Below are positions 5,981 to 64,000 of a stretch of DNA of 64,000 nt, piece by piece (the stretch's first letter is position 1; each line of letters starts with the position of its first letter). A program made the position numbers and the translations under genes. This DNA is from a bacterium 1XD8-76 (GTDB taxonomy: Bacteria > Bacillota > Clostridia > Lachnospirales > Lachnospiraceae): positions 496,001 through 560,000 of the forward strand of contig RAZE01000001.1 of NCBI GenBank assembly GCA_003611955.1. The letters are read 5' to 3'. Below the pieces are notes generated by a model. It ran no database searches and was not told where the DNA came from. It saw only the letters and a list, made by a program, of their open reading frames with translations.

Positions 5981-6019
5981 TGAGCCGTCTCGAAAAAGCA
6001 ACAGAGACGGCTCATTTAT
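5981..6019 (+). terminator. Intrinsic terminator after isomerase operon
   Basis: TGAGCCGTCTC (5981-5991) pairs perfectly with GAGACGGCTCA (6004-6014) across a 12-base loop, followed by a short T-containing tail. It lies between the isomerase stop and the start of the sensing operon. Confidence 0.65.
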
Positions 6020-11460: not shown

Positions 11461-12627
11461 ATGTCCAAAAAGTTACTTAGTGTTTTACTTAGCACAGCAA
11501 TGGTAGCGGCTCTCCTTGTGGGATGCGGCAATTCTGCAACAGAAGAACCCGCAGCAGCAACAGAGGAAGCGGCTCCGGCAGAAGAAGCTCCTGCAGAAGA
11601 ATCCGAAGCGCCCGCAGAGGATGCGGCGGAAGCTCCCGCAGCGGCAGCAGGAACAAAGGTTGGCGTTTCCATGCCGACAAAGGATCTGCAGAGATGGAAT
11701 CAGGACGGCGCAAACATGGAAGCTCAGCTGAAAGAGGCAGGCTATGAAGTGGATCTTCAGTATGCGAACAACGAGCCTCAGACTCAGGTTTCTCAGATTG
11801 AGAACATGATCTCCAACGGAGCTAATGTACTGGTTATCGCAGCGATCGAGGCATCTTCCTTAGGGGAAGCTCTGGATATGGCGAAAGCAGCCAATATTCC
11901 GGTAATCGCTTATGACCGTCTCATCATGAACTCCGATGCGGTTTCCTACTATGCAACATTCGATAACTACAAAGTAGGCGTGACACAGGGTCAGTACATC
12001 GTTGATACTCTTGATCTTGACAACGCGGAAGGTCCGTTCAACCTTGAGATCACAGCAGGTGATCCGGGCGACAACAACGCTCCTTTCTTCTACAACGGCG
12101 CTATGGATACCCTGAAACCTTACATTGAGTCCGGCAAGCTGGTAGTAAAATCCGGCCAGACCGAATTTGAAGAAGTAGGTACACCTCAGTGGAAGACAGA
12201 GACAGCTCAGTCCAGAGCAGACAATATCATCAGCTCCTTCTACGCTGACGGCACAAACATCGACGTATGGCTTTGCTCCAACGACTCCACAGCGCTCGGC
12301 GTTGAGACAGCTCTGGCAAACAGCTACAACGGTGAGTATCCGATCGTTACCGGTCAGGACTGCGATATCGAGAACACAAAGAACATGATCGCCGGCAAAC
12401 AGTCCATGTCCGTATTTAAGGACACACGTACTCTGGCATCTCAGGTTGTTAAGATGGTTGGTCAGATCTTAAACGGCGAAGAAGTGGAAGTAAACGATAC
12501 AGAGACTTACGACAATGGAACAGGAGTTATTCCTTCTTTCCTTTGCGAGCCTGTATTCGCAGATGCGAACAACTACAAAGAGCTGCTGATCGATTCCGGT
12601 TACTACACAGAGGATCAGCTGAAATAA
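11461..12627 (+). CDS. chvE: Multiple-monosaccharide ABC importer, ChvE-type binding lipoprotein
   Basis: A 388-residue lipoprotein with signal peptide and lipobox LLVGC, then a Pro/Ala/Glu-rich linker (about residues 25-65) that spaces the domain from the membrane. The binding domain follows the ChvE pattern closely: VGVSMPTKDLQRWNQDG, SQIENMISNGANVLVIA, IAYDRLIMNSDAVSYYATFD, SGQTEFEEVGTPQWKTETAQ, and the C-terminal NYKELLIDSGYYTEDQLK. ChvE-type proteins bind several aldoses such as glucose, galactose, arabinose, xylose and fucose. Codon use is noticeably biased, suggesting high expression. The ribosome site AGGGAGGA precedes it, and a stable hairpin after its stop separates it from the ATPase and permease genes. 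Confidence 0.9.
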   Translation: MSKKLLSVLLSTAMVAALLVGCGNSATEEPAAATEEAAPAEEAPAEESEAPAEDAAEAPAAAAGTKVGVSMPTKDLQRWNQDGANMEAQLKEAGYEVDLQYANNEPQTQVSQIENMISNGANVLVIAAIEASSLGEALDMAKAANIPVIAYDRLIMNSDAVSYYATFDNYKVGVTQGQYIVDTLDLDNAEGPFNLEITAGDPGDNNAPFFYNGAMDTLKPYIESGKLVVKSGQTEFEEVGTPQWKTETAQSRADNIISSFYADGTNIDVWLCSNDSTALGVETALANSYNGEYPIVTGQDCDIENTKNMIAGKQSMSVFKDTRTLASQVVKMVGQILNGEEVEVNDTETYDNGTGVIPSFLCEPVFADANNYKELLIDSGYYTEDQLK

Positions 12628-53914: not shown

Positions 53915-55638
<1,724 letters not shown>

Positions 55639-55841
55639 ATTTTTACTTCTTCTGTTTTGGTATTTTTTAGGATGCTTTGCATGGCAGATTTTGAGATAAA
55701 TTCATAATCCGTTTGGAAGCCAAAAGCCTTGTGTAAACCATCCGCCATACCTTTCTTCATCAGCTATACAGTCCAGATAAACAGCTGAATGAGTGATTTG
55801 TTGTTCCGCAGCAAATAATATAGCCAGAAGGAGTCGAAGTA
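55639..55841. other. Non-coding or decayed region after pyrG
   Basis: The gene-free stretch from pyrG to the LysR gene is about 578 bp. Its first part carries only a 41-codon minus-strand ORF (55635-55760, KKGMADGLHKAFGFQTDYEF) that I cannot assign and that may be another gene remnant. The second part holds the Rpn fragment listed separately; 56131-56216 is apparently non-coding. Confidence 0.4.
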
Positions 55842-56130
55842 AAATTCAGTTGTTTTAAGGAAAAACTAAGATATAATATAAATGAGGTAAAGGCGACAGA
55901 TACGAAGGCGCAGTATGATGAGAGTGCCAAACGATTGTTGGGACAAAAAAGTATACTGGCACATATACTGGTAAAAACGGTAGATGAGTTTAGAGGAATG
56001 AACCCCAAAGAAGTGGTTTCTTAATATTGAGGGGCAGTCTTATATCAGTACAGTACCAGTAGAGCCGGGACTTACCAATACCAGGAGCGAAAAGGACGGT
56101 CAGAGGATTGCAGGTTTCAATTTTTCAGTG
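55842..56130 (+). pseudogene. Rpn-family nuclease/transposase N-terminal fragment
   Basis: An open stretch reads INEVKATDTKAQYDESAKRL and HILVKTVDEFRGMNPKEVVS, ends at TAA 56022-56024, and continues in another frame as YISTVPVEPGLTNTRSEKDG, GQRIAGFN. This is the start of Lachnospiraceae Rpn-type (PD-(D/E)XK) recombination-promoting nuclease proteins. It has at least one frameshift and lacks the nuclease core. Confidence 0.65.
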
Positions 56131-56216
56131 TCCAAAGGATGCGCAGCCGTTACCAAAGGGAACGATCTTAGGGGTTTGGGGATATGTCACCAACAAGCTA
56201 TGCAGGAGGTATTGCA

Positions 56217-57101
56217 ATGGAAATACGGGTGCTTCGCTATTTTCTTGCGGTTGTTCGCGAAGGAGGAATCAATCGGGCAGCAGAAGTCTTACATATTACC
56301 CAGCCGACATTGAGCCGCCAGCTATCACAGCTAGAGGAAGAAGTTGGTGTTAAGCTGTTTTACAGAGGCGCAAAAAAGATTACCTTAACAAACGAGGGAG
56401 TTTTACTGCGGCGGAGAGCAGAGGAAATTTTGTCTTTAGTTGACCGGACAGAAAAAGAGCTGATTGAACAGGACGAGATGGTGGAAGGCAGAATCGTCAT
56501 TGGCGGCGGGGAGTTGGCGGCCATGCAGGTGCTGCCGGAAATCATTGAAACTTTCCGAGACAAGTATCCCCTTGTAACTTTCGACATTTTTACAGGAAAT
56601 GCCGATCTGGTGAAGGAGCAGATGGAAAAAGGGTTGATTGATATTGGCGTTTTGCTGGAGCCGGTTGATATCGAAAAGTTTGATTTTATTCGACTGAAAG
56701 GAAAAGAGCGATGGGTTGTTTTAATGCGCCCGGACGATCCGCTTGCGGAAAAAGAAGCTGTGAGTGCAAAAGACTTGGAGAATAAGCCGCTCATACTTCC
56801 GAGACGGACAAATGTGAGGAACGAATTATCCCACTGGTTCGGCGATTTCTTCCAGGAAAAACAGGTTCTCTTTACCAGTAATCTGGCCACAAACAGCGCC
56901 CTTATGGTTCAGCAGGGGTTGGCATACTCCATTGTAATTGAGGGTTCCGTACCCTTTTGGGATAAAGAAAAAATTATTTACCGGCCATTATCACCGGAAC
57001 TGACAGCAAGTAGTGTGCTGGCATGGAAAAAACAGCAGCCGTTTAGTTTGGCTGCGACAAAATTTATAGAACACATGAGATACCTTTTAGGCATAACCTG
57101 A
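56217..57101 (+). CDS. LysR-family transcriptional regulator
   Basis: A 294-residue LysR-type regulator with an N-terminal winged helix (MEIRVLRYFLAVVREGGINR, then AAEVLHITQPTLSRQLSQLE) and a substrate-binding domain of the type I periplasmic fold (GRIVIGGGELAAMQVLPEII, PLVTFDIFTGNADLVKEQME). The start at 56217 is seven bases after AGGAGGT; an upstream frame start at 56184 is less likely. It is followed by a promoter and terminator and then by the redox cluster, which it probably controls. Close relatives often stand before flavodoxin, cupin and aldo/keto reductase genes. Confidence 0.9.
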   Translation: MEIRVLRYFLAVVREGGINRAAEVLHITQPTLSRQLSQLEEEVGVKLFYRGAKKITLTNEGVLLRRRAEEILSLVDRTEKELIEQDEMVEGRIVIGGGELAAMQVLPEIIETFRDKYPLVTFDIFTGNADLVKEQMEKGLIDIGVLLEPVDIEKFDFIRLKGKERWVVLMRPDDPLAEKEAVSAKDLENKPLILPRRTNVRNELSHWFGDFFQEKQVLFTSNLATNSALMVQQGLAYSIVIEGSVPFWDKEKIIYRPLSPELTASSVLAWKKQQPFSLAATKFIEHMRYLLGIT

Positions 57102-57118
57102 ATATAAAAACTAAGCAT

Positions 57119-57147
57119 TTGATATAACCAATGACCTAAATTATAAT
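57119..57147 (+). promoter_or_regulatory. Promoter of redox cluster
   Basis: TTGATA (57119-57124) and TATAAT (57142-57147) are separated by 17 bp. The expected start lies inside the first arm of the hairpin at 57148, so a transcript from here would not form that hairpin completely. Confidence 0.65.
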
Positions 57148-57196
57148 GTAGGTGTAGAAAAAAGTGTAGCCGCTTTTCTTCTGCACCTGCTTTTTT
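57148..57196 (+). terminator. Intrinsic terminator of LysR gene
   Basis: GTAGGTGTAGAA (57148-57159) pairs with TTCTGCACCTGC (57179-57190) with G-U pairs; an inner AAAAG/CTTTT extends it. TTTTTT follows (57191-57196). Confidence 0.85.
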
Positions 57197-57247
57197 GTGG
57201 CGGAAAGTTTGCAGAAAGTGCTTTCTATTAAATAAGGGAGGCTGACG

Positions 57248-57430
57248 ATGACATTAGAGGAAGTAACCAGACAGGTAAAAAAGTGTGGAAAGACAAAGGA
57301 GGATCAGATACGGATTTTAAGAAAAAGCAGATTACAGCTGTTGGATGAAATACATTCCAAGCAGCAATTATTAGACCAGTTGGATTATATGATCCATGAA
57401 ATTAAGAAAGATTCGGAGGTTTCTACATGA
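57248..57430 (+). CDS. Small coiled-coil hypothetical protein
   Basis: A 60-residue, highly charged, fully helical protein (EEVTRQVKKCGKTKEDQIRI, HSKQQLLDQLDYMIHEIKKD) resembling the C-terminal coiled coil of MerR-type regulators. It has AAGGGAGG seven bases before the ATG and its stop overlaps the start of the cupin gene by four bases. It may be a free-standing dimerisation segment or a remnant of a MerR gene that lost its DNA-binding part. It is the first gene after the promoter of the redox cluster. Confidence 0.65.
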   Translation: MTLEEVTRQVKKCGKTKEDQIRILRKSRLQLLDEIHSKQQLLDQLDYMIHEIKKDSEVST

Positions 57431-57839
57431 AAAGATTAGAACACAAGACTATTTTTGAAAAAGGCGTCCTCAATCCTTTTGGCGAGTATTTTACAGGACA
57501 ATCCTATCTGGCAATGCTGACACAGTTAAATGGCGTAGGTGTTGCAAATGTAACTTTTGAACCTGCCTGTCGGAATAACTGGCACATCCATCATGGAGAG
57601 AACGGCGGCGGCCAGATTCTGCTCGTTACCGGAGGGCGGGGCTGGTATCAGGAATGGGGAAAAGAAGCACAGGAGCTTCGGGCCGGAGATGTGGTTACAA
57701 TTCCTGTGGGCGTGAAACATTGGCATGGGGCGGCAAAAGACAGCTGGTTTCCCATGTGGCTATAGAGGTTCCCGGCGAGGGTACTTCCAATGAATGGCTG
57801 GAAGCCGTTTCAGATACAGATTACAGCAAATTGAAGTAG
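57427..57839 (+). pseudogene. Cupin-domain protein, frameshifted near C-terminus
   Basis: The cupin metal-site motif is present: NNWHIHHGENGGGQILLVTGG, then the second motif GVKHWHGAAKDSWF. The frame stops at TAG 57763-57765, but the expected continuation HVAIEVPGEGTSNEWLEAVS and a TAG are found in the next frame to 57839. Loss of one T in TGGTTTCCCATG near 57748-57750 (TTTT to TTT) explains it. About 25 C-terminal residues are lost from the product. Both cupin motifs are retained, so the truncated protein could still fold and bind metal. Confidence 0.75.
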
Positions 57840-57849
57840 GAGGCAGACA

Positions 57850-58208
57850 ATGAAAAAAATATGGGTTCCGCTGCTTTGCCTGTTATTTGCATACTCCTTT
57901 TCCGGCTGTGGAAATAATCCGATGAATCAAATAGAGGAAAGTAAGGCGGAGGAAACGGAGGGAGGGAATATTATGGCGGTGTAGACTTCTATCCTGCGGC
58001 GGAGAATCTGGCGGGCGGAGGAAACACCTTTGACAATGGCGATATTACTTACTGCGAGGCCCATCATAACATGGCGGTTTTTTATGCACAGACAGATAAT
58101 CCCGTGCTTTCCGTGGATGTCATTCCGATTGGCAGAGTGACTTCGGACTTATCTGTTTTTGAGAACCTTGAAAGCCGGGTGGAAATTACCTTCTCACTGG
58201 CAGAATAG
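57850..58208 (+). pseudogene. Cyclophilin-like lipoprotein with internal deletion
   Basis: The N-terminus is a lipoprotein signal (MKKIWVPLLCLLFAYSFSGC) and a short acidic linker ending at TAG 57982-57984 region. Immediately overlapping, in another frame, is YGGVDFYPAAENLAGGGNTF, then YCEAHHNMAVFYAQ and LESRVEITFSLAE, which is the C-terminal part of cyclophilin-like fold proteins. The central half of the domain is missing. The result looks like a deletion followed by frameshift. The parent protein probably belonged to the same redox cluster as the next flavodoxin. Confidence 0.7.
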
Positions 58209-58226
58209 AGAGTGAACACAAGTTCC

Positions 58227-58355
58227 TGAGTCAAAGACCCTGCAGCAAACTGACGGGGCATCAAAATTCTAGCGCAGCAAGCTACGGGGTATTTGACCCT
58301 TGCGGCAGTCGCCAAATATCCATGCAAGCATGGCTGCTTGGCTCGTTGCTTCGCG
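58227..58355. repeat. Intergenic imperfect direct repeat
   Basis: Two related copies contain GCAGCAA (58242-58248 and 58274-58280) followed by (A/G)CT(G)ACGGGG(C/T)AT. A CCATGC/GCATGG hairpin follows at 58320-58333, and GACCC occurs twice. The region lies between the collapsed lipoprotein and the flavodoxin gene and looks like a decayed interspersed intergenic repeat. Confidence 0.5.
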
Positions 58356-58382
58356 GGAATAAAAAAATTGGAGGAAAGACCT

Positions 58383-59108
58383 ATGAAAAAAATTGCAGCT
58401 TTATTACTTACTCTTTTAATGGCCGTATCCATTACGGCATGTGCCGGGAGCAGTGAACCGGCTGAAATTGGTTCGTCTGATGTGGAGAACAGCGTAGCAG
58501 AGGAAATGTCCGAACCGGAAAGCGGCGTAGCAGAATCCGAACAAGAAAACGAGACTGCGCAGTCCGGTGAAACGGAAGAAGCGGAGCCTGTGCCTGAAAC
58601 GGATACCGGGATGGAAGGGGCAAAGGTACTGGTAGCTTATTTCTCTGCCACCAATACAACAGAGGGTGTGGCTGAACATATTGCAAATGGTCTGAACGCA
58701 GACCTTTATGAGATTGTCCCGGAGGAACCTTATACAGAAGCAGATCTGAACTATAACGATGATAACAGCCGCAGTACCATTGAAATGAATGACCCTTCCG
58801 CACGTCCGGCTATCTCCGGTTTGGTGGAGAACATGGAGCAATACGATATTGTATTTATAGGGTATCCGATTTGGTGGGGCGAAGCGCCAAGAATCGTCAG
58901 CACCTTTATGGAAAGTTATGATTTTTCCGGCAAGACGATTGTTCCTTTCTGCACTTCCGGCGGCAGCGGTATTGGTTCCAGCGATTCCAATTTGGAGCAG
59001 CTTACCAGTGGCGCTGACTGGCTGGATGGACGGCGGCTGAACGGAAGTGATTCGGAGGAAACGGTTATGGAATGGGTAAACGGTCTTGGGCTGGGAAAAC
59101 AAAAATGA
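58383..59108 (+). CDS. Lipoprotein flavodoxin
   Basis: A 241-residue protein with a lipoprotein signal peptide (MKKIAALLLTLLMAVSITAC, lipidated Cys20), an acidic Ser/Glu-rich linker (21-80) and a flavodoxin_4 domain. The FMN phosphate loop is FSATNTTE (87-94), and the ring-binding segments GYPIWWGEAPRIVSTF and FCTSGGSGIGSS are present. It would be an FMN protein on the outer face of the membrane. It is co-transcribed with, and overlaps by four bases, a DUF4405 membrane protein. A ribosome site GGAGGAAAG precedes the start; earlier in-frame ATG at 58293 lies in the repeat. Confidence 0.88.
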   Translation: MKKIAALLLTLLMAVSITACAGSSEPAEIGSSDVENSVAEEMSEPESGVAESEQENETAQSGETEEAEPVPETDTGMEGAKVLVAYFSATNTTEGVAEHIANGLNADLYEIVPEEPYTEADLNYNDDNSRSTIEMNDPSARPAISGLVENMEQYDIVFIGYPIWWGEAPRIVSTFMESYDFSGKTIVPFCTSGGSGIGSSDSNLEQLTSGADWLDGRRLNGSDSEETVMEWVNGLGLGKQK

Positions 59109-59815
59109 AAGTGAAAATGTTCATTGACATTTTGATGACGGTGTTTGTACTCATGCTGATGGCATATCAAGCCACAGGAGAAAAGCTCCATGAATGGCTC
59201 GGTACGGGAATGGCTGTATTATTTCTGGCACATAACCTTTTGAATATCCGGTGGTATGGGAGTTTGATGAAAGGAAAATATAGTCTTCTTCGTATTTTTC
59301 GGACAGTAATCAACTTTTCTGTTTTTGTAGTAATGCTTGCGCTTGCTTACAGTGGTATTGTTATGTCCCGTCATGTATTTTCCGCACTTCCAATTAATGG
59401 TGGAATGGCAGCGGCGAGAGTGCTGCACCTTGCAGGCTCCTACTGGGGATTTGTACTGATGAGCGTTCATCTTGGGCTTCATTGGAGTATGATAACAGGA
59501 ATGATTTGTAAACATTTCGGCGAAAAAAAATCTGAGGTTCTACGATGGAGCCTCCGGCTGATAGCTGCGTATGGAGCAGTTTCCTTCTATCAGGCGGATA
59601 TTTTGTCCTATATGTTTCTTAAAGTGGAGTTTGCATTTCTTGATTACGAAAAAAGCGCCGCTTTCATCTTTGCAGAATATATGGCGATGATGGGACTGTG
59701 GGTGTTTATCGCCTTCTATGTGTCAAAAGTGTTGGTAAAATTATCAGCAGCAAAATATAAGCGAAAGCGAGGCGAAGGGGCAAGAAATGAATCAGAAAGC
59801 AGAAGCGTTTTCTAA
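59105..59815 (+). CDS. DUF4405 membrane protein, probable di-heme cytochrome b
   Basis: A 236-residue polytopic protein with five to six helices. His29 and His43, and His108 and His122, form two pairs spaced exactly 14 residues apart on two helices, the arrangement of bis-His heme ligands in cytochrome b-type proteins; this suggests two hemes. The start ATG overlaps the flavodoxin stop (ATGA). It could carry electrons between the cytoplasm and the lipoprotein flavodoxin. Heme binding is inferred, and the family name is from recollection. The gene end overlaps the MATE start by 29 bases. Confidence 0.78.
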   Translation: MKVKMFIDILMTVFVLMLMAYQATGEKLHEWLGTGMAVLFLAHNLLNIRWYGSLMKGKYSLLRIFRTVINFSVFVVMLALAYSGIVMSRHVFSALPINGGMAAARVLHLAGSYWGFVLMSVHLGLHWSMITGMICKHFGEKKSEVLRWSLRLIAAYGAVSFYQADILSYMFLKVEFAFLDYEKSAAFIFAEYMAMMGLWVFIAFYVSKVLVKLSAAKYKRKRGEGARNESESRSVF

Positions 59816-61130
59816 CAAGCAATTAAAAGGAATGATTGTCCCGCTGTTTTTCGAGCAGCTTTTGGTTATGCTGGTGGGACTGGCGGATACACTGGTAATA
59901 AGCTATGCGGGAGAGGCAGCCGTTTCCGGTGTTTCTTTGGTAAATCAATTCAATACAATTTTTATCTATCTGTTTACTGCATTGGCATCCGGTGGAGCGG
60001 TTGTGATCAGCCAGTATATCGGCAGAAATGAAAAGGGTGCTGCGGGAGCTTCTGCCAGTCAGCTTTTGCTGTTCTCCACCGTTTTTTCGAGTATTGCGGC
60101 AGGACTGGTACTGTTGGGAAATGAATGGATATTGCGTCTGATGTTCGGCAAGGTCGAGGATTCCGTCATGGAGGCCTGTGTGACCTATCTTCGGATTTCG
60201 GCATATTCCTATCCGGCATTGGCGGTTTATAATTCCGGCGCAGCAGTCTGCCGCAGTCTTGGGAAAACGAATGTAACCATGTATCTGTCCGTGGTTTCCA
60301 ATATTGTCAACGTGATTGGAAATCTAATCGGCGTATTTGTGCTTCATGCAGGAGTGGCGGGTGTCGCATATCCTTCTTTCATTGCCCGGACGTTTTCGGC
60401 TGTGATGATTACATGGCTGTGCTTTCGCAGAAAAAATGAGGTGTTTTATCAGTGGGAATGGATTTTTAAGTGGAGCGGCGATTCCATGAGAAAAATTTTG
60501 CGGATTGCTGTCCCCAATGGTCTGGAAAACGGCGTATTCCAGTTGGTGAAGGTGGCTCTTAGCAGCATTGTGGCCCTTTTTGGAACTTATCAGATTGCGG
60601 CTAACGGAGTGGCGCAAAGCATCTGGTCTTTGGCAGCATTGGCAGGTGTGGCCATGGGGCCGGTATTTATCACAGTGATCGGACAGTGTATGGGAAACCA
60701 GGATACGGAAGGAGCAGACTATTATTTCAAAAAGCTGACGGGGATTATGATCCTGCTTTCTACGGCATGGAACCTGATTGTATTTCTTCTGACACCGCTC
60801 TTTCTAAGGTTCTATGCACTGGAACCGGAGACAAAGCGGCTTGTTGTCTGGCTGGTGCTGATTCATAATGTATTCAATGCGGCGGCCTTTCCGTTTTCCG
60901 GCGCGGTCAGCAATGGGCTTCGGGCGGCGGGGGACGTGAAATTTACCATGTATGTTTCCATTGCGTCCACGATTGCAGGCCGACTGTTATTGACCTGGCT
61001 TCTCGGTGTTGTCCTTGATATGGGAGTTATCGGCATTGCGGCTGCTATGGTATGCGACTGGATGATCCGGGCGGTTATCTTTATTCTGCGGCAAAAGTCC
61101 GGCAGATGGAAAAACTTTCAGGTCATTTAA
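59787..61130 (+). CDS. MATE family efflux transporter
   Basis: A 447-residue transporter with 12 helices and MATE family segments: [38 protein letters not shown], and [20 protein letters not shown]. The N-terminal gate region and the [17 protein letters not shown] segment of the second half are typical. Such proteins export cationic or drug-like compounds with Na+ or H+. It starts after AAGGGG inside the end of the DUF4405 gene, so the two are translationally coupled. A role in detoxifying a product of the redox genes is possible but not shown. Confidence 0.92.
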
Positions 61131-61185
61131 GTGTACTGCATACGGACAAAAATATAAAAATTTTAATTTTCAGGAGGAAATCTTT

Positions 61186-61668
61186 ATGAACAGAAAAATT
61201 TTAGTAGCTTATTTTTCGGCAAGCGGTGTAACCGCAAAGGCAGCAGAAAAGCTGGCGGAAGCGGCACAGGCCGATCTTTATGAAATCAAACCAAAGATTC
61301 CCTATACCCGCGCCGATTTGGACTGGACGGATAAGAAAAGCAGAAGCTCGGTGGAGATGAATGATAAGGCTTCCCGTCCGGCAATCGCAGGCAAGGTGGA
61401 AAATATGGAGGAATATGACACCGTATTTATCGGTTTTCCGATTTGGTGGTATGTCGCCCCGACGATTATCAATACGTTTCTGGAAAGCTATCATTTTTCC
61501 GGAAAGACCATCATTCCTTTTGCGACCTCCGGAGGGAGCGGCATGGGAAGAACAAATGAAAACTTAAAGCCGAGCTGTCCCGGAGCAGTCCTGATGCCGG
61601 GAAAAATGTTAAACGGCAGCCTGTCAGAGACGGAACTGAAAAACTGGGTAGAAAATATGGGGTTGTGA
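61186..61668 (+). CDS. Flavodoxin (cytoplasmic)
   Basis: A 160-residue flavodoxin_4-type protein with no signal peptide. [11 protein letters not shown] binds FMN phosphate, and [16 protein letters not shown] and [11 protein letters not shown] line the flavin. It is clearly related to the lipoprotein flavodoxin domain encoded upstream (shared SRSxxEMNDxxxRPAI and FSGKTI segments), so the cluster carries an inside and an outside version. The ribosome site AGGAGG precedes the ATG. It is followed by an aldo/keto reductase after 18 bases. Confidence 0.92.
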
Positions 61669-61686
61669 TTTTAGGAGGTGGAAATC

Positions 61687-62724
61687 GTGCAATACCGTAA
61701 ATTAGGCGTTTCCGGGCTGAATGTTTCTGGCATTTGTATGGGGTGTATGGGATTTGGCGAGGCGGGAAACGGACAGCATACATGGACGATTGACGAGGAA
61801 CATTCCCGTGAAATCATCCGCCGGGGGCTGGAATTGGGCGTTAATTTCTTTGATACAGCCATAGGATACCAGAGCGGAACCAGCGAGCAGTATCTTGGGC
61901 GTGCGCTGCGGGATTATGCAAGGCGTGACGAGGTGGTTGTGGCTACGAAATTCCTTCCCCGCACGCAGGAAGAAATCAAGGCAGGCATTACCGGGCAGCA
62001 GCATATCCAGCGGATGATAAACAAAAGCCTTATCAATCTTGGCATGGATTATGTAGATTTATATATCTATCATATGTGGGACTATGAAACACCTCTTTAT
62101 GACATCATGGAGGGACTGGATCATGTAGTGAAGGCGGGAAAAGCCCGCTATATCGGCATTGCCAACTGTTATGCTTACCAGCTTGTCAGGGCAAATGCAC
62201 TGGCGGAAAAAGAAGGGTTCGCAAAATTTATATCCGTACAGAATCATTATAATCTCATTTTCCGGGAAGAAGAACGGGAAATGACAAAGCTCTGTTGTGA
62301 AGATCAGATTGCCATGACACCTTACAGCGCACTGGCAGGAGGCAGACTTGCGAAATATCCCGGCGAAACTTCAAAGCGTATGCAGGAGGACAGTTATGCA
62401 AGGCTGAAATATGACGCTACCACAGAGCAGGACGGCGCAATTATCAGAAGGGTTGCGCTCCTTGCAGAGAAAAGAGGCGTCTCTATGACGGAGATTTCTC
62501 TTGCATGGCTTATGGCAAAAGTAACCTCACCGATAGTCGGCGCAACGAAACTTCATCATGTGGAGGGCGCGGCAAAGGCGGCGGAGCTGAAATTATCGGA
62601 AGAAGAAATTTCCTGTCTGGAGGAACTTTATATACCTCACAAACTGGTGGGCGTGATGGCGCAGAATACACAGGATACTGCAAAGGAAAGTCATGTGTGG
62701 TCTGCAGGGAACCAGAAAATTTGA
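61687..62724 (+). CDS. Aldo/keto reductase
   Basis: A 345-residue NADPH-dependent reductase. The GTG start at 61687 is correctly spaced after AGGAGGTGG and gives MQYRKLGVSGLNVSGICMGC, the family N-terminus; a GTG at 61678 lies within the ribosome site. Catalytic residues are visible in FFDTAIGYQSG (Asp, Tyr), VVATKFLPR (Lys) and YIYHMWDYE (His). The C-terminal SPIVGATKLHHVEGAAKAAE is the cofactor loop. The family is related to YhdN/IolS-type reductases. It may take electrons for the reduction of an aldehyde or quinone. Confidence 0.9.
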   Translation: MQYRKLGVSGLNVSGICMGCMGFGEAGNGQHTWTIDEEHSREIIRRGLELGVNFFDTAIGYQSGTSEQYLGRALRDYARRDEVVVATKFLPRTQEEIKAGITGQQHIQRMINKSLINLGMDYVDLYIYHMWDYETPLYDIMEGLDHVVKAGKARYIGIANCYAYQLVRANALAEKEGFAKFISVQNHYNLIFREEEREMTKLCCEDQIAMTPYSALAGGRLAKYPGETSKRMQEDSYARLKYDATTEQDGAIIRRVALLAEKRGVSMTEISLAWLMAKVTSPIVGATKLHHVEGAAKAAELKLSEEEISCLEELYIPHKLVGVMAQNTQDTAKESHVWSAGNQKI

Positions 62725-62741
62725 CTGCGGGAGGCGTTGGA

Positions 62742-63500
62742 ATGGAACGATTCAATATTGCGGAAAAGAATCATCAGGACTGGTTCGGAGGTCATTATTT
62801 TTCCGATCATCAATATGATCCTGAATTTGAGGAGATTGTCAGGAAATTTCTTTGCGGTGATGTCCTCGTTCATGGCACATTGTCGAATGTGCAGCGGGCG
62901 CTTGTTATGCTTACCGCTTTGACGGCCAGCCAGACATGGAAACCACTTTCAAAATATGTGCTGGCGGCGTTGGACATGGGAGCAGCGCCGGAAGAAATCA
63001 AAGAAACGCTGTATCAGTGCGCTCCTTATATTGGCGTGGAAAAGGTAAAATGCGCTCTGGACGAGGCAAATAAAGCCTTTCAGTCTGCCGGGATTGTTTA
63101 TCCGTTGGAAAAGCAGGCGAAAGTTACGGAGGAAAACAGGTTTGCTAAAGGTCTTGCCGTTCAGCAGGAGATTTTCGGTGAGGACAATATCAAAGCGATG
63201 CGCCGTGTTGCACCGCAGGAGTTAAAGCATATTCAGGATTATCTGTCTGCCTATTGCTTTGGCGATTTCTATACAAGAGGAACTTTGGATTTGAAAATGC
63301 GGGAACTGGTTACATTCTGTGCGATTTGCTGTCTCGGCGGCTGTGAGCCGCAGGCGAAGGCTCATGCGGGCGCAAACTTAAGCGTGGGCAATACCCGTGA
63401 AATGCTGATTGAAGCAATTACCCAATGCCTGCCGTTTATTGGATTTCCGAGGACATTAAATGCGATTTCCTGTATAAATGAAGTAACAGCAGAAAAATAA
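62742..63500 (+). CDS. Carboxymuconolactone decarboxylase family protein (two domains)
   Basis: A 252-residue helical protein with two CMD/AhpD-like domains (about residues 30-110 and 150-240). The first contains NVQRALVMLTALTASQTWKP, and the second ELVTFCAICCLGGCEPQAKAHAGANL. In the AhpD motif CxxCxxxH only the first Cys and the His remain (CEPQAKAH), so peroxide-reductase chemistry is doubtful. It resembles the MSMEG/YurZ-like two-domain group often found beside aldo/keto reductases and flavodoxins. The ATG at 62742 follows GGGAGGCG. It is the last gene of the redox cluster. Confidence 0.85.
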   Translation: MERFNIAEKNHQDWFGGHYFSDHQYDPEFEEIVRKFLCGDVLVHGTLSNVQRALVMLTALTASQTWKPLSKYVLAALDMGAAPEEIKETLYQCAPYIGVEKVKCALDEANKAFQSAGIVYPLEKQAKVTEENRFAKGLAVQQEIFGEDNIKAMRRVAPQELKHIQDYLSAYCFGDFYTRGTLDLKMRELVTFCAICCLGGCEPQAKAHAGANLSVGNTREMLIEAITQCLPFIGFPRTLNAISCINEVTAEK

Positions 63501-63733
63501 TGGAGGATTGGTATGAGGAAAGCTATTATTGAGGGTAAAGAATTGGAACTTGCGTAAAAGGGTTATGAAATACCTTCAGGTCATCAAAGATACGGTTGAA
63601 AAATGGTCGGACTGTTTACAGGGGCTCATATGAAAAAATTCACAACAGAATTCCTTCGTTTGACAACAAAATCTGGCGCTTGCGGGTGATACTCTGGTAG
63701 AATGAGAGAGAAACCCGAAAAGGAAGTAATGGA
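63501..63733 (+). other. Degenerate gene remnant region
   Basis: After the CMD gene, GGAGG precedes a 14-codon ORF (63513-63557, MRKAIIEGKELEL), and a 22-codon ORF at 63565-63633 (MKYLQVIKDTVEKWSDCLQG) follows. Neither has a recognisable domain. They look like debris of a deleted gene. The following regulator has its own ribosome site. Confidence 0.35.
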
Positions 63734-64000
63734 ATGCGGATAGCGATATGCGATGATGAAAAAGAGATCAGGGAGCTGCTTGGGGATAAGGTGAAGAATC
63801 TTTATCCGGAGGCGGCTCTTGCCTTTTATGCGGCGGGAGAGGAACTGCTCACGTCAAAAGAACGGCCGGATATACTGTTTCTGGACATCCAGATGCCCGG
63901 AAAGAACGGGATGGAGACAGCGGAAGAACTGCGCAGAAAATGGCGGGAGACGGTTCTCATTTTTGTGACGGCTCTGGAAGAATATGTGTTTCAGGCCTTC
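63734..64000 (+). CDS. LytTR-type response regulator, receiver domain (3' end outside window)
   Basis: The first 89 codons of a response regulator are present: IAICDDEKEIRELL acidic pocket, phosphoacceptor in ILFLDIQMPGKNGMETA, and FVTALEEYVFQAF at the window edge. The ICDDE beginning and EYVFQAF end are typical of LytTR/AgrA-like regulators, in which a DNA-binding LytTR domain follows. The ATG follows AGGAAG. Its sensor kinase probably lies outside the window. Confidence 0.85.
   Translation, partial: MRIAICDDEKEIRELLGDKVKNLYPEAALAFYAAGEELLTSKERPDILFLDIQMPGKNGMETAEELRRKWRETVLIFVTALEEYVFQAF

Follow-up and report, generated by a model that had tools for sequence, protein, structure and literature searches.

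The window analyzed here is a 64,000-nucleotide stretch from the bacterium 1XD8-76 of the Lachnospiraceae (contig RAZE01000001.1, positions 496,001 to 560,000), and its main subject is a flavodoxin with an export signal whose gene overlaps that of a DUF4405 membrane protein. Between 58383 and 63500, six genes follow one another on the forward strand: the lipoprotein Flavodoxin_4, DUF4405, a MATE transporter, a signal-less Flavodoxin_4, an aldo/keto reductase and a protein with two carboxymuconolactone decarboxylase (CMD) stretches (Table 1). The four bases ATGA at 59105-59108 contain both the flavodoxin stop and the DUF4405 start, and the first ATG of the MATE gene sits within the 3' end of the DUF4405 gene. 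The initial annotation of this DNA had described the overlap, at these coordinates, and had placed a cytoplasmic flavodoxin, an aldo/keto reductase and a MATE transporter downstream; all three were located on the forward strand. A LysR regulator and a cupin gene are the upstream neighbors of the flavodoxin–DUF4405 genes. With E values up to 0.1 admitted, an Rfam scan of 55500-64000 returned no hits, hence none to a flavin mononucleotide (FMN) riboswitch in that interval.

The DUF4405 protein matches Pfam PF14358 with 44.5 bits (cut-off 26.7) and carries two histidine pairs, H29/H43 and H108/H122, with a spacing of 14 residues in both. These pairs had been pointed out in the initial annotation. 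When DUF4405 was searched against 200 genomes from the family, 54 had a match, the window's own genome among them. H29, H43, H108, H122 and H126 are identical in 47 of 47 aligned rows from the family genomes (window included; matches covering fewer than 170 query residues excluded) and in all 119 rows of a non-redundant set with named relatives added (window included; each at least 190 residues). On this comparison, the His pattern is not chance. The AlphaFold2 model is all-helical, with a mean predicted local distance difference test (pLDDT) of 92.9, and spans assigned by hand from model and sequence give six transmembrane helices with four central His. Lysine plus arginine make up 0.24–0.37 per residue of the N-terminus, loops 2-3 and 4-5 and the C-terminus, versus 0.03–0.08 of the other loops. 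Because these charges fall on one side, both termini are predicted to be inside, with H29 and H108 near the outer face and H43 and H122 near the inner face. The spacing and predicted placement of the His are those of a two-heme cytochrome b. DUF4405/arCOG04002 was assigned to the cytochrome b family in 2015 by Makarova et al. (PMC5898192); the window protein shares that family assignment and the conserved heme His, whereas the available portion of that paper has an archaeal context and mentions no exported flavodoxin partner. One purified DUF4405, an Oscillospiraceae homologue, gave heme b spectra (PMC11334425), and this finding, together with the invariance of the four His across all 119 rows, points to heme in the window protein.

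The protein encoded at 58383-59108 combines a Flavodoxin_4 domain with an export signal. Its N-terminus, MKKIAALLLTLLMAVSITAC/AGSS, contains the lipobox SITAC and no twin arginine. Proteins leaving by the Sec route do so unfolded and free of cofactor and, because the lipobox is classical and the twin arginine absent, the lipoprotein flavodoxin should exit in this way, without FMN. Alignment to 3KLB, a Bacteroides fragilis Flavodoxin_4 with non-covalent FMN that serves as the non-covalent reference in PMC11334425, is gap-free over 159 residues (E 3.7e-54); the window protein differs from 3KLB by its lipoprotein signal and by an acidic linker some 58 residues long. Covalent flavin has been shown on two Flavodoxin_4 proteins in which extra residues are inserted between strand 1 and helix 1 (PMC11334425). 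This insert, which holds the flavinylation motif, is not present in the window lipoprotein, as the gap-free alignment indicates. Nor does the motif occur elsewhere in it when searched as [ST][GS]A[ST], a regular expression built from the motifs seen in the loci surveyed below. The FMN-binding loops are kept, both in the alignment to 3KLB and in the consensus YFSatgnT, GYPiWWgeaP and CTSggSG found across 80 exported proteins without the motif; which loop residues contact FMN is here presumed. Because it has no ApbE site, the window flavodoxin is predicted to bind FMN non-covalently.

A FastTree phylogeny of 212 domains, in which 72 of 209 inner branches are weak, placed the window lipoprotein in a set of 83 rows. 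The set comprises 48 exported motif-less proteins (window included), 33 cytosolic and 2 fusion domains, and none of the 47 motif-bearing rows. This suggests that the motif-less class goes back to a non-covalent cytosolic lineage that became exported, rather than to loss of the motif. Descent of the window flavodoxin from the covalent class by loss of the motif was rejected with modest confidence, on the basis of a set devoid of motif-bearing rows in a tree with many weak branches. Elsewhere in the same genome, the only PF12682 match is a third flavodoxin (G000:C25, L094:939-1875), a broken gene, without the motif and with a hydrophobic helix at the N-terminus.

The general arrangement has been published. 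Huang et al. (2024, mSystems) described DUF4405 in apbE clusters with flavinylated Flavodoxin_4 and a flavin transporter (PMC11334425). The initial annotation had called the route undescribed, which is wrong for the general route, since that paper reports both a DUF4405 that binds heme b and clusters in which DUF4405 accompanies exported, flavinylated Flavodoxin_4. As in those clusters, the window DUF4405 adjoins an exported Flavodoxin_4 and has six helices with four central His, and a transmembrane route is proposed. In contrast to them, the window flavodoxin lacks the insert and the motif, the cluster contains no apbE, and a MATE gene is adjacent, with no Listeria-type flavin transporter among the nine window cluster proteins covered by a Pfam scan. 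According to the same work, extracytosolic flavodoxins, unlike cytosolic ones, show signs of covalent flavin, consistent with preventing flavin loss. Listeria flavin-based extracellular electron transfer (FmnB, ECF flavin transport) resembles the proposed system in two respects, a flavoprotein at the surface that is fed from the membrane and a supply of flavin by export, but the FMN of FmnB is covalent, attached via an ApbE-like enzyme, and the transporter is another one (PMC9973259). In the open-licence literature without supplements, no description was found of a motif-less exported flavodoxin beside DUF4405; a supplement such as Table S1 of PMC11334425 could mention one. The general DUF4405–exported flavodoxin system is already in print, while the motif-less variant, frequent in our sample, was not found there.

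The frequency of the variant was surveyed around 130 DUF4405 centers, obtained from 142 DUF4405 proteins (100 bits or more) by removing near copies according to shared 5-mers; in this set Schaedlerella arabinosiphila stands for the window. The window protein was the query that found these centers, which hence lean toward its relatives. Many loci are cut by contig ends, and counts were therefore also made on 70 long loci flanked by 5.5 kb or more on each side. An exported flavodoxin lies within 6.5 kb on the same strand in 87 of the 130. Motif-less exported flavodoxins were found near 74 centers, motif-bearing ones near 38 and both near 25; a motif-less protein with no motif-bearing one in view occurs at 48 (some of these loci are cut). 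Flavodoxins far behind a signal, as in the FGE fusions described below, were classed as cytosolic, which makes the exported counts low and the cytosolic counts high. In 47 of 130 cases, the first recognized gene upstream of DUF4405 encodes an exported flavodoxin without the motif, and in 17 it encodes one with the motif. The 47 cases correspond to 46 proteins, as locus L090, with its DUF4405 in two pieces, is counted twice; 42 of the 46 were recognized by lipobox and 4 by membrane helix, the two features by which the exported motif-less class is defined. Applied to shuffled N-termini, the lipobox rule fired in 0 of 920.

apbE, by comparison, lies near 11 of the 130 centers. Nine of these have a motif-bearing flavodoxin in view, and the other two (L182 and L124) are both cut, with no flavodoxin in view. 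Among the 70 long loci, which hold motif-less proteins in 49 and motif-bearing ones in 23, apbE occurs in 7, all with a motif-bearing flavodoxin (Fisher p=0.0002; the Fisher tests here and below ignore relatedness). It is unlinked to motif-less flavodoxins (4 of 7 loci with apbE versus 45 of 63 others, p=0.42). The only ApbE match in the window's own genome is on another contig (L096, G000:C4:12091-12915), and none is in the cluster. The genes flanking it look, by eye, like cysK and trpB, and FMN_bind matches in this genome lie on C3 and C33.

Natural fusions join the two kinds of protein. Pfam identified a DUF4405 followed by a further hydrophobic stretch, an FGE-sulfatase-like domain and a flavodoxin in L035 (whose contig is also that of L160), L062, L064 and L199, the flavodoxin being partial in L062 and L199; three more FGE fusions (L162, L185, L189) were assigned by layout, not by Pfam. 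Fusions of DUF4405 to a flavodoxin with no FGE domain are L081, with the motif-like DASAHAS, and L088, which bears the motif DAVSGAS. The FGE fusions and L081 have a further hydrophobic stretch after the sixth helix and, because this seventh one is added to a protein whose C-terminus is predicted to be inside, the fused flavodoxin is expected outside; no seventh helix was seen in L088. In L033, the FGE-flavodoxin is a separate lipoprotein adjoining DUF4405. Its FGE-like domain seems, by eye, to have no cysteines at the expected catalytic pair, and is for this reason probably no formylglycine enzyme. Of all the evidence for DUF4405 acting together with an outer flavodoxin, these natural fusions are the strongest.

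Other DUF4405 homologues have different extensions. Those at L084:7310-8494 and L087:6285-7865 have a long C-terminal tail with CTGCGKQC-like cysteine motifs, and the frame at L181:7974-9740 continues with a sequence resembling a lipoprotein signal and with a long additional domain that is perhaps DUF362-like. The window's own genome also holds a second DUF4405 fragment (G000:C10:67625-67765).

The MATE transporter is the candidate source of extracytosolic flavin. The MATE proteins YeeO and Bfe have been reported as flavin exporters (PMC12934955, PMC5655446, PMC11748539). The window MATE belongs to the same transporter family, and its best NCBIfam model is EmmdR/YeeO (NF007562), for which it ranks second of 18 MATE matches in the genome, between one on another contig (226 bits) and a third with 111 bits. 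Its scores of 198.8 and 201.1 bits fall short of the cut-off of 465, which sets it apart from YeeO. A tree was built from 26 cluster MATEs, namely the window's and 25 others from DUF4405 loci (pieces below 1.1 kb were dropped), and from 17 paralogues in the window's own genome. In it, the window MATE falls in a clade of 21 cluster MATEs (support 100/100), with 5 cluster MATEs and all 17 paralogues outside; the clade does not prove absence of unlinked members, and such members were found elsewhere. A MATE gene is present in 20 of the 70 long loci. Motif-less exported flavodoxins accompany 18 of these 20 versus 31 of the 50 others (p=0.023), and cytosolic flavodoxins 16 of 20 versus 23 of 50 (p=0.016). 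Eight close relatives of the window MATE were found outside the window (120 genomes, E up to 1e-120). Four lie near a flavodoxin or DUF4405 (G026, G003, G104, G114), and four have neither nearby (two in G118, one in G017 and one on a 6.2 kb contig of G107), by which a strict tie between MATE and flavodoxin was rejected. The adjacent YeeO-like MATE might, on this loose link, supply FMN.

The nearest named relatives by DUF4405 are Bacterium C-53 (98% identical) and S. arabinosiphila (96%). Both have a further upstream lipoprotein gene that encodes a flavodoxin and a cyclophilin-like domain (by Pfam, in the C-53 copy) with the motif DATTSAS, and C-53 has a second motif-bearing gene of this kind, again with DATTSAS, after the CMD gene. 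In blastn blocks, window positions 57959 and 57957 correspond to positions 6001 and 6768 of the C-53 locus (L117), and the first motif-bearing gene thus lacks about 770 bases in the window. Likeness to the second ends just past that gene's start. Judged from these alignments, the window locus keeps the motif-less exported flavodoxin only and has neither of the motif-bearing genes of C-53.

Table 1. Genes, predicted heme ligands and gene remnants at the flavodoxin–DUF4405 locus (window coordinates)
Feature	Position	Strand	Evidence
LysR-type regulator, upstream, same direction	56217..57101	+	Pfam LysR_substrate and HTH_1
Remnant of motif-bearing flavodoxin-cyclophilin-like lipoprotein	57850..58208	+	central ~770 bp missing vs Bacterium C-53
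Flavodoxin_4 lipoprotein with export signal, 241 aa; lacks ApbE insert and motif; predicted to bind FMN non-covalently	58383..59108	+	Pfam PF12682 211 bits; lipobox SITAC
DUF4405 six-helix protein, 236 aa, di-heme cytochrome b candidate	59105..59815	+	Pfam PF14358 over cut-off; AlphaFold2 pLDDT 92.9
H29, predicted outer-heme ligand, partner H108	59189..59191	+	identical 119/119; pairing inferred from topology
H43, predicted inner-heme ligand, partner H122	59231..59233	+	identical 119/119; pairing inferred
H108, predicted outer-heme ligand	59426..59428	+	identical 119/119
H122, predicted inner-heme ligand	59468..59470	+	identical 119/119
MATE transporter of YeeO-like subfamily frequent in such clusters; candidate flavin exporter	59787..61130	+	tree clade; NF007562 score
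Cytosolic Flavodoxin_4, 160 aa, candidate inner electron carrier	61186..61668	+	Pfam PF12682 297 bits; no signal peptide
Aldo/keto reductase (beyond 58383-61668, the span of the initial annotation)	61678..62724	+	Pfam PF00248 222 bits
Carboxymuconolactone-decarboxylase family protein, two CMD stretches	62742..63500	+	Pfam PF02627
Possible remnant: start of second motif-bearing flavodoxin-cyclophilin-like lipoprotein	63513..63557	+	L117 similarity ends 63523 / 12482

Two further features were seen upstream of the exported flavodoxin. The cupin frame (57427-57765) is broken near its 3' end and is longer and full in C-53. Directly before the flavodoxin gene, some 120 bases (58236-58357) are rich in hairpins by DNA folding (z -2.2); this stretch is not in the S. 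arabinosiphila alignment and is present at the same place in C-53. A partial copy lies at 11965-12027 of the C-53 locus, where the CMD frame is in two pieces; diverged copies occur in L190, L161, L123, L038 and L052, and one match was found in the window's own genome at E up to 0.001.

Together, these features favor an extracytosolic electron-transfer pair made of a di-heme DUF4405 and an exported flavodoxin with non-covalent FMN, a reading that we hold to be reasonably probable. DUF4405 would lie in the membrane, its two ends on the inner side, and would carry a stack of two b hemes between helices 2 and 4, the outer one held by H29/H108 and the inner one by H43/H122. It would take electrons from a cytosolic carrier, possibly the adjacent cytosolic flavodoxin, and hand them to the lipoprotein flavodoxin anchored at the outer face. 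The latter would leave by Sec as an apoprotein and bind FMN outside, non-covalently, with FMN coming from the surroundings or from a flavin exporter, for which the adjacent YeeO-like MATE is a candidate. The initial annotation had proposed an exported flavodoxin coupled to a di-heme membrane protein, and this idea gains from the His invariance, the positive-inside topology, the gene order and the natural fusions. Its question of how FMN gets to the outer flavodoxin was well placed, since that protein has no ApbE site.

Several observations weigh against this reading. No exported flavodoxin lies within 6.5 kb of 43 of the 130 centers (some loci are cut by contig ends), and the window lipoprotein has closer kin than the flavodoxins of the fusions. 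When the DUF4405 model was compared with the PDB by Foldseek, nothing matched at E 0.001 or better; among the 121 matches at E up to 10, the cytochrome-b-like structures 1kqf_C, 2bs3_C, 6nin_A and 6hcy_A were not above noise, and phmmer against PDB sequences returned nothing at E up to 1. Ferrochelatase was not found in the genome (E up to 0.001), and heme for DUF4405 must for that reason be imported or made another way; as a predicted heme protein with a full frame, DUF4405 may depend on gut heme. The syntenic DUF4405 is short or split in two of three same-genus genomes: it has a frame of 101 residues in G203 (L197) and two short frames in G206 (L200), which has an intact DUF4405 fusion elsewhere (L199), and it is intact in G201 (L198). 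The S. arabinosiphila locus has no cytosolic flavodoxin, the blastn blocks skipping window positions 61138-61644, and its reductase frame has just 136 residues. Because of these two differences, flavodoxins on both sides of the membrane are, from the loci compared, not a fixed feature; the initial annotation's claim of such a pair draws weak to moderate support from the association of cytosolic flavodoxins with MATE and loses by their absence in S. arabinosiphila. ApbE, finally, is encoded somewhere in 43 of 46 genomes searched, the window's own included, so that an ApbE role is possible. These 46 are 43 of the 54 DUF4405-matched genomes (11 weak or partial matches left out) plus the three same-genus genomes. 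Of the three with no ApbE match, G004 (rated 100% complete) speaks for the proposed pair, as it has a motif-less lipoprotein directly before a DUF4405 that continues into a seventh helix and a partial flavodoxin, G007 (rated 96%) has DUF4405 alone at its locus, and G001 is rated 74%.

The genes around the pair could also be read as a LysR-controlled redox-stress operon, a possible but less probable explanation. Here, the aldo/keto reductase, CMD protein, cupin and cytosolic flavodoxin would handle reactive carbonyls or quinones, MATE would export the products, and the exported flavodoxin and DUF4405 would reduce the same compounds outside. Near DUF4405 in the 70 long loci, the aldo/keto reductase is found in 40, CMD in 23, cupin in 23 and LysR in 27. 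The substrates of such an operon are putative, and on the G107 contig the reductase and MATE occur together with neither DUF4405 nor a flavodoxin in view. Moreover, this explanation names a purpose and is compatible with the electron-transfer pair; the operon partners hint at a redox-stress role, naming no substrate.

It is unlikely that the locus is a decaying remnant of the published ApbE-type system, in which both covalent flavodoxins were lost and what is left no longer moves electrons. In its favor are the first C-53 motif-bearing gene, here a remnant, the second, missing past its start, and the broken cupin frame, and the absent ferrochelatase and the short or split DUF4405 in two of three same-genus genomes point the same way. 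Against this, DUF4405, the motif-less lipoprotein and the downstream genes through CMD have full frames, and 48 of the 130 centers have a motif-less but no motif-bearing flavodoxin nearby (some loci cut).

We consider it quite improbable that electrons flow inward, from an outside donor through the exported flavodoxin and DUF4405 to a cytosolic carrier. The anatomy is symmetric and the sequence fixes no direction, but gut anaerobes need acceptors more than donors. Published DUF4405 relatives have, in addition, been interpreted as serving extracytosolic redox activities (PMC11334425). The least probable explanation, that ApbE loads the exported flavodoxin after all through an unrecognized site or a non-covalent hand-over of FMN, is served by the ApbE gene on another contig and the wide occurrence of ApbE among the genomes, and conflicts with the missing [ST][GS]A[ST] in the window lipoprotein, with the lack of association between apbE and motif-less proteins, and with the motif-less pair of G004, which has no ApbE match.

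For the electron-transfer pair, the observation behind the initial annotation is right and the mechanism plausible; in this gut bacterium, the window pair is probably a wire carrying electrons out of the cell. Near DUF4405 in our sample, motif-less exported flavodoxins are commoner than motif-bearing ones (74 versus 38 of 130 centers), the class opposite to the one in the published account (PMC11334425). The variant raises the question of what charges an exported flavodoxin with FMN. We regard as rather doubtful the broader proposal that gut Firmicutes have a second, ApbE-independent surface flavoprotein wire, in which Sec-exported flavodoxins from a non-covalent cytosolic lineage would be fed by di-heme DUF4405 proteins and charged with FMN outside by a YeeO-like MATE. 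If the motif-less flavodoxins do hold FMN, flavin wiring at the surface would not depend on covalent attachment, and there must be some extracellular source of flavin.

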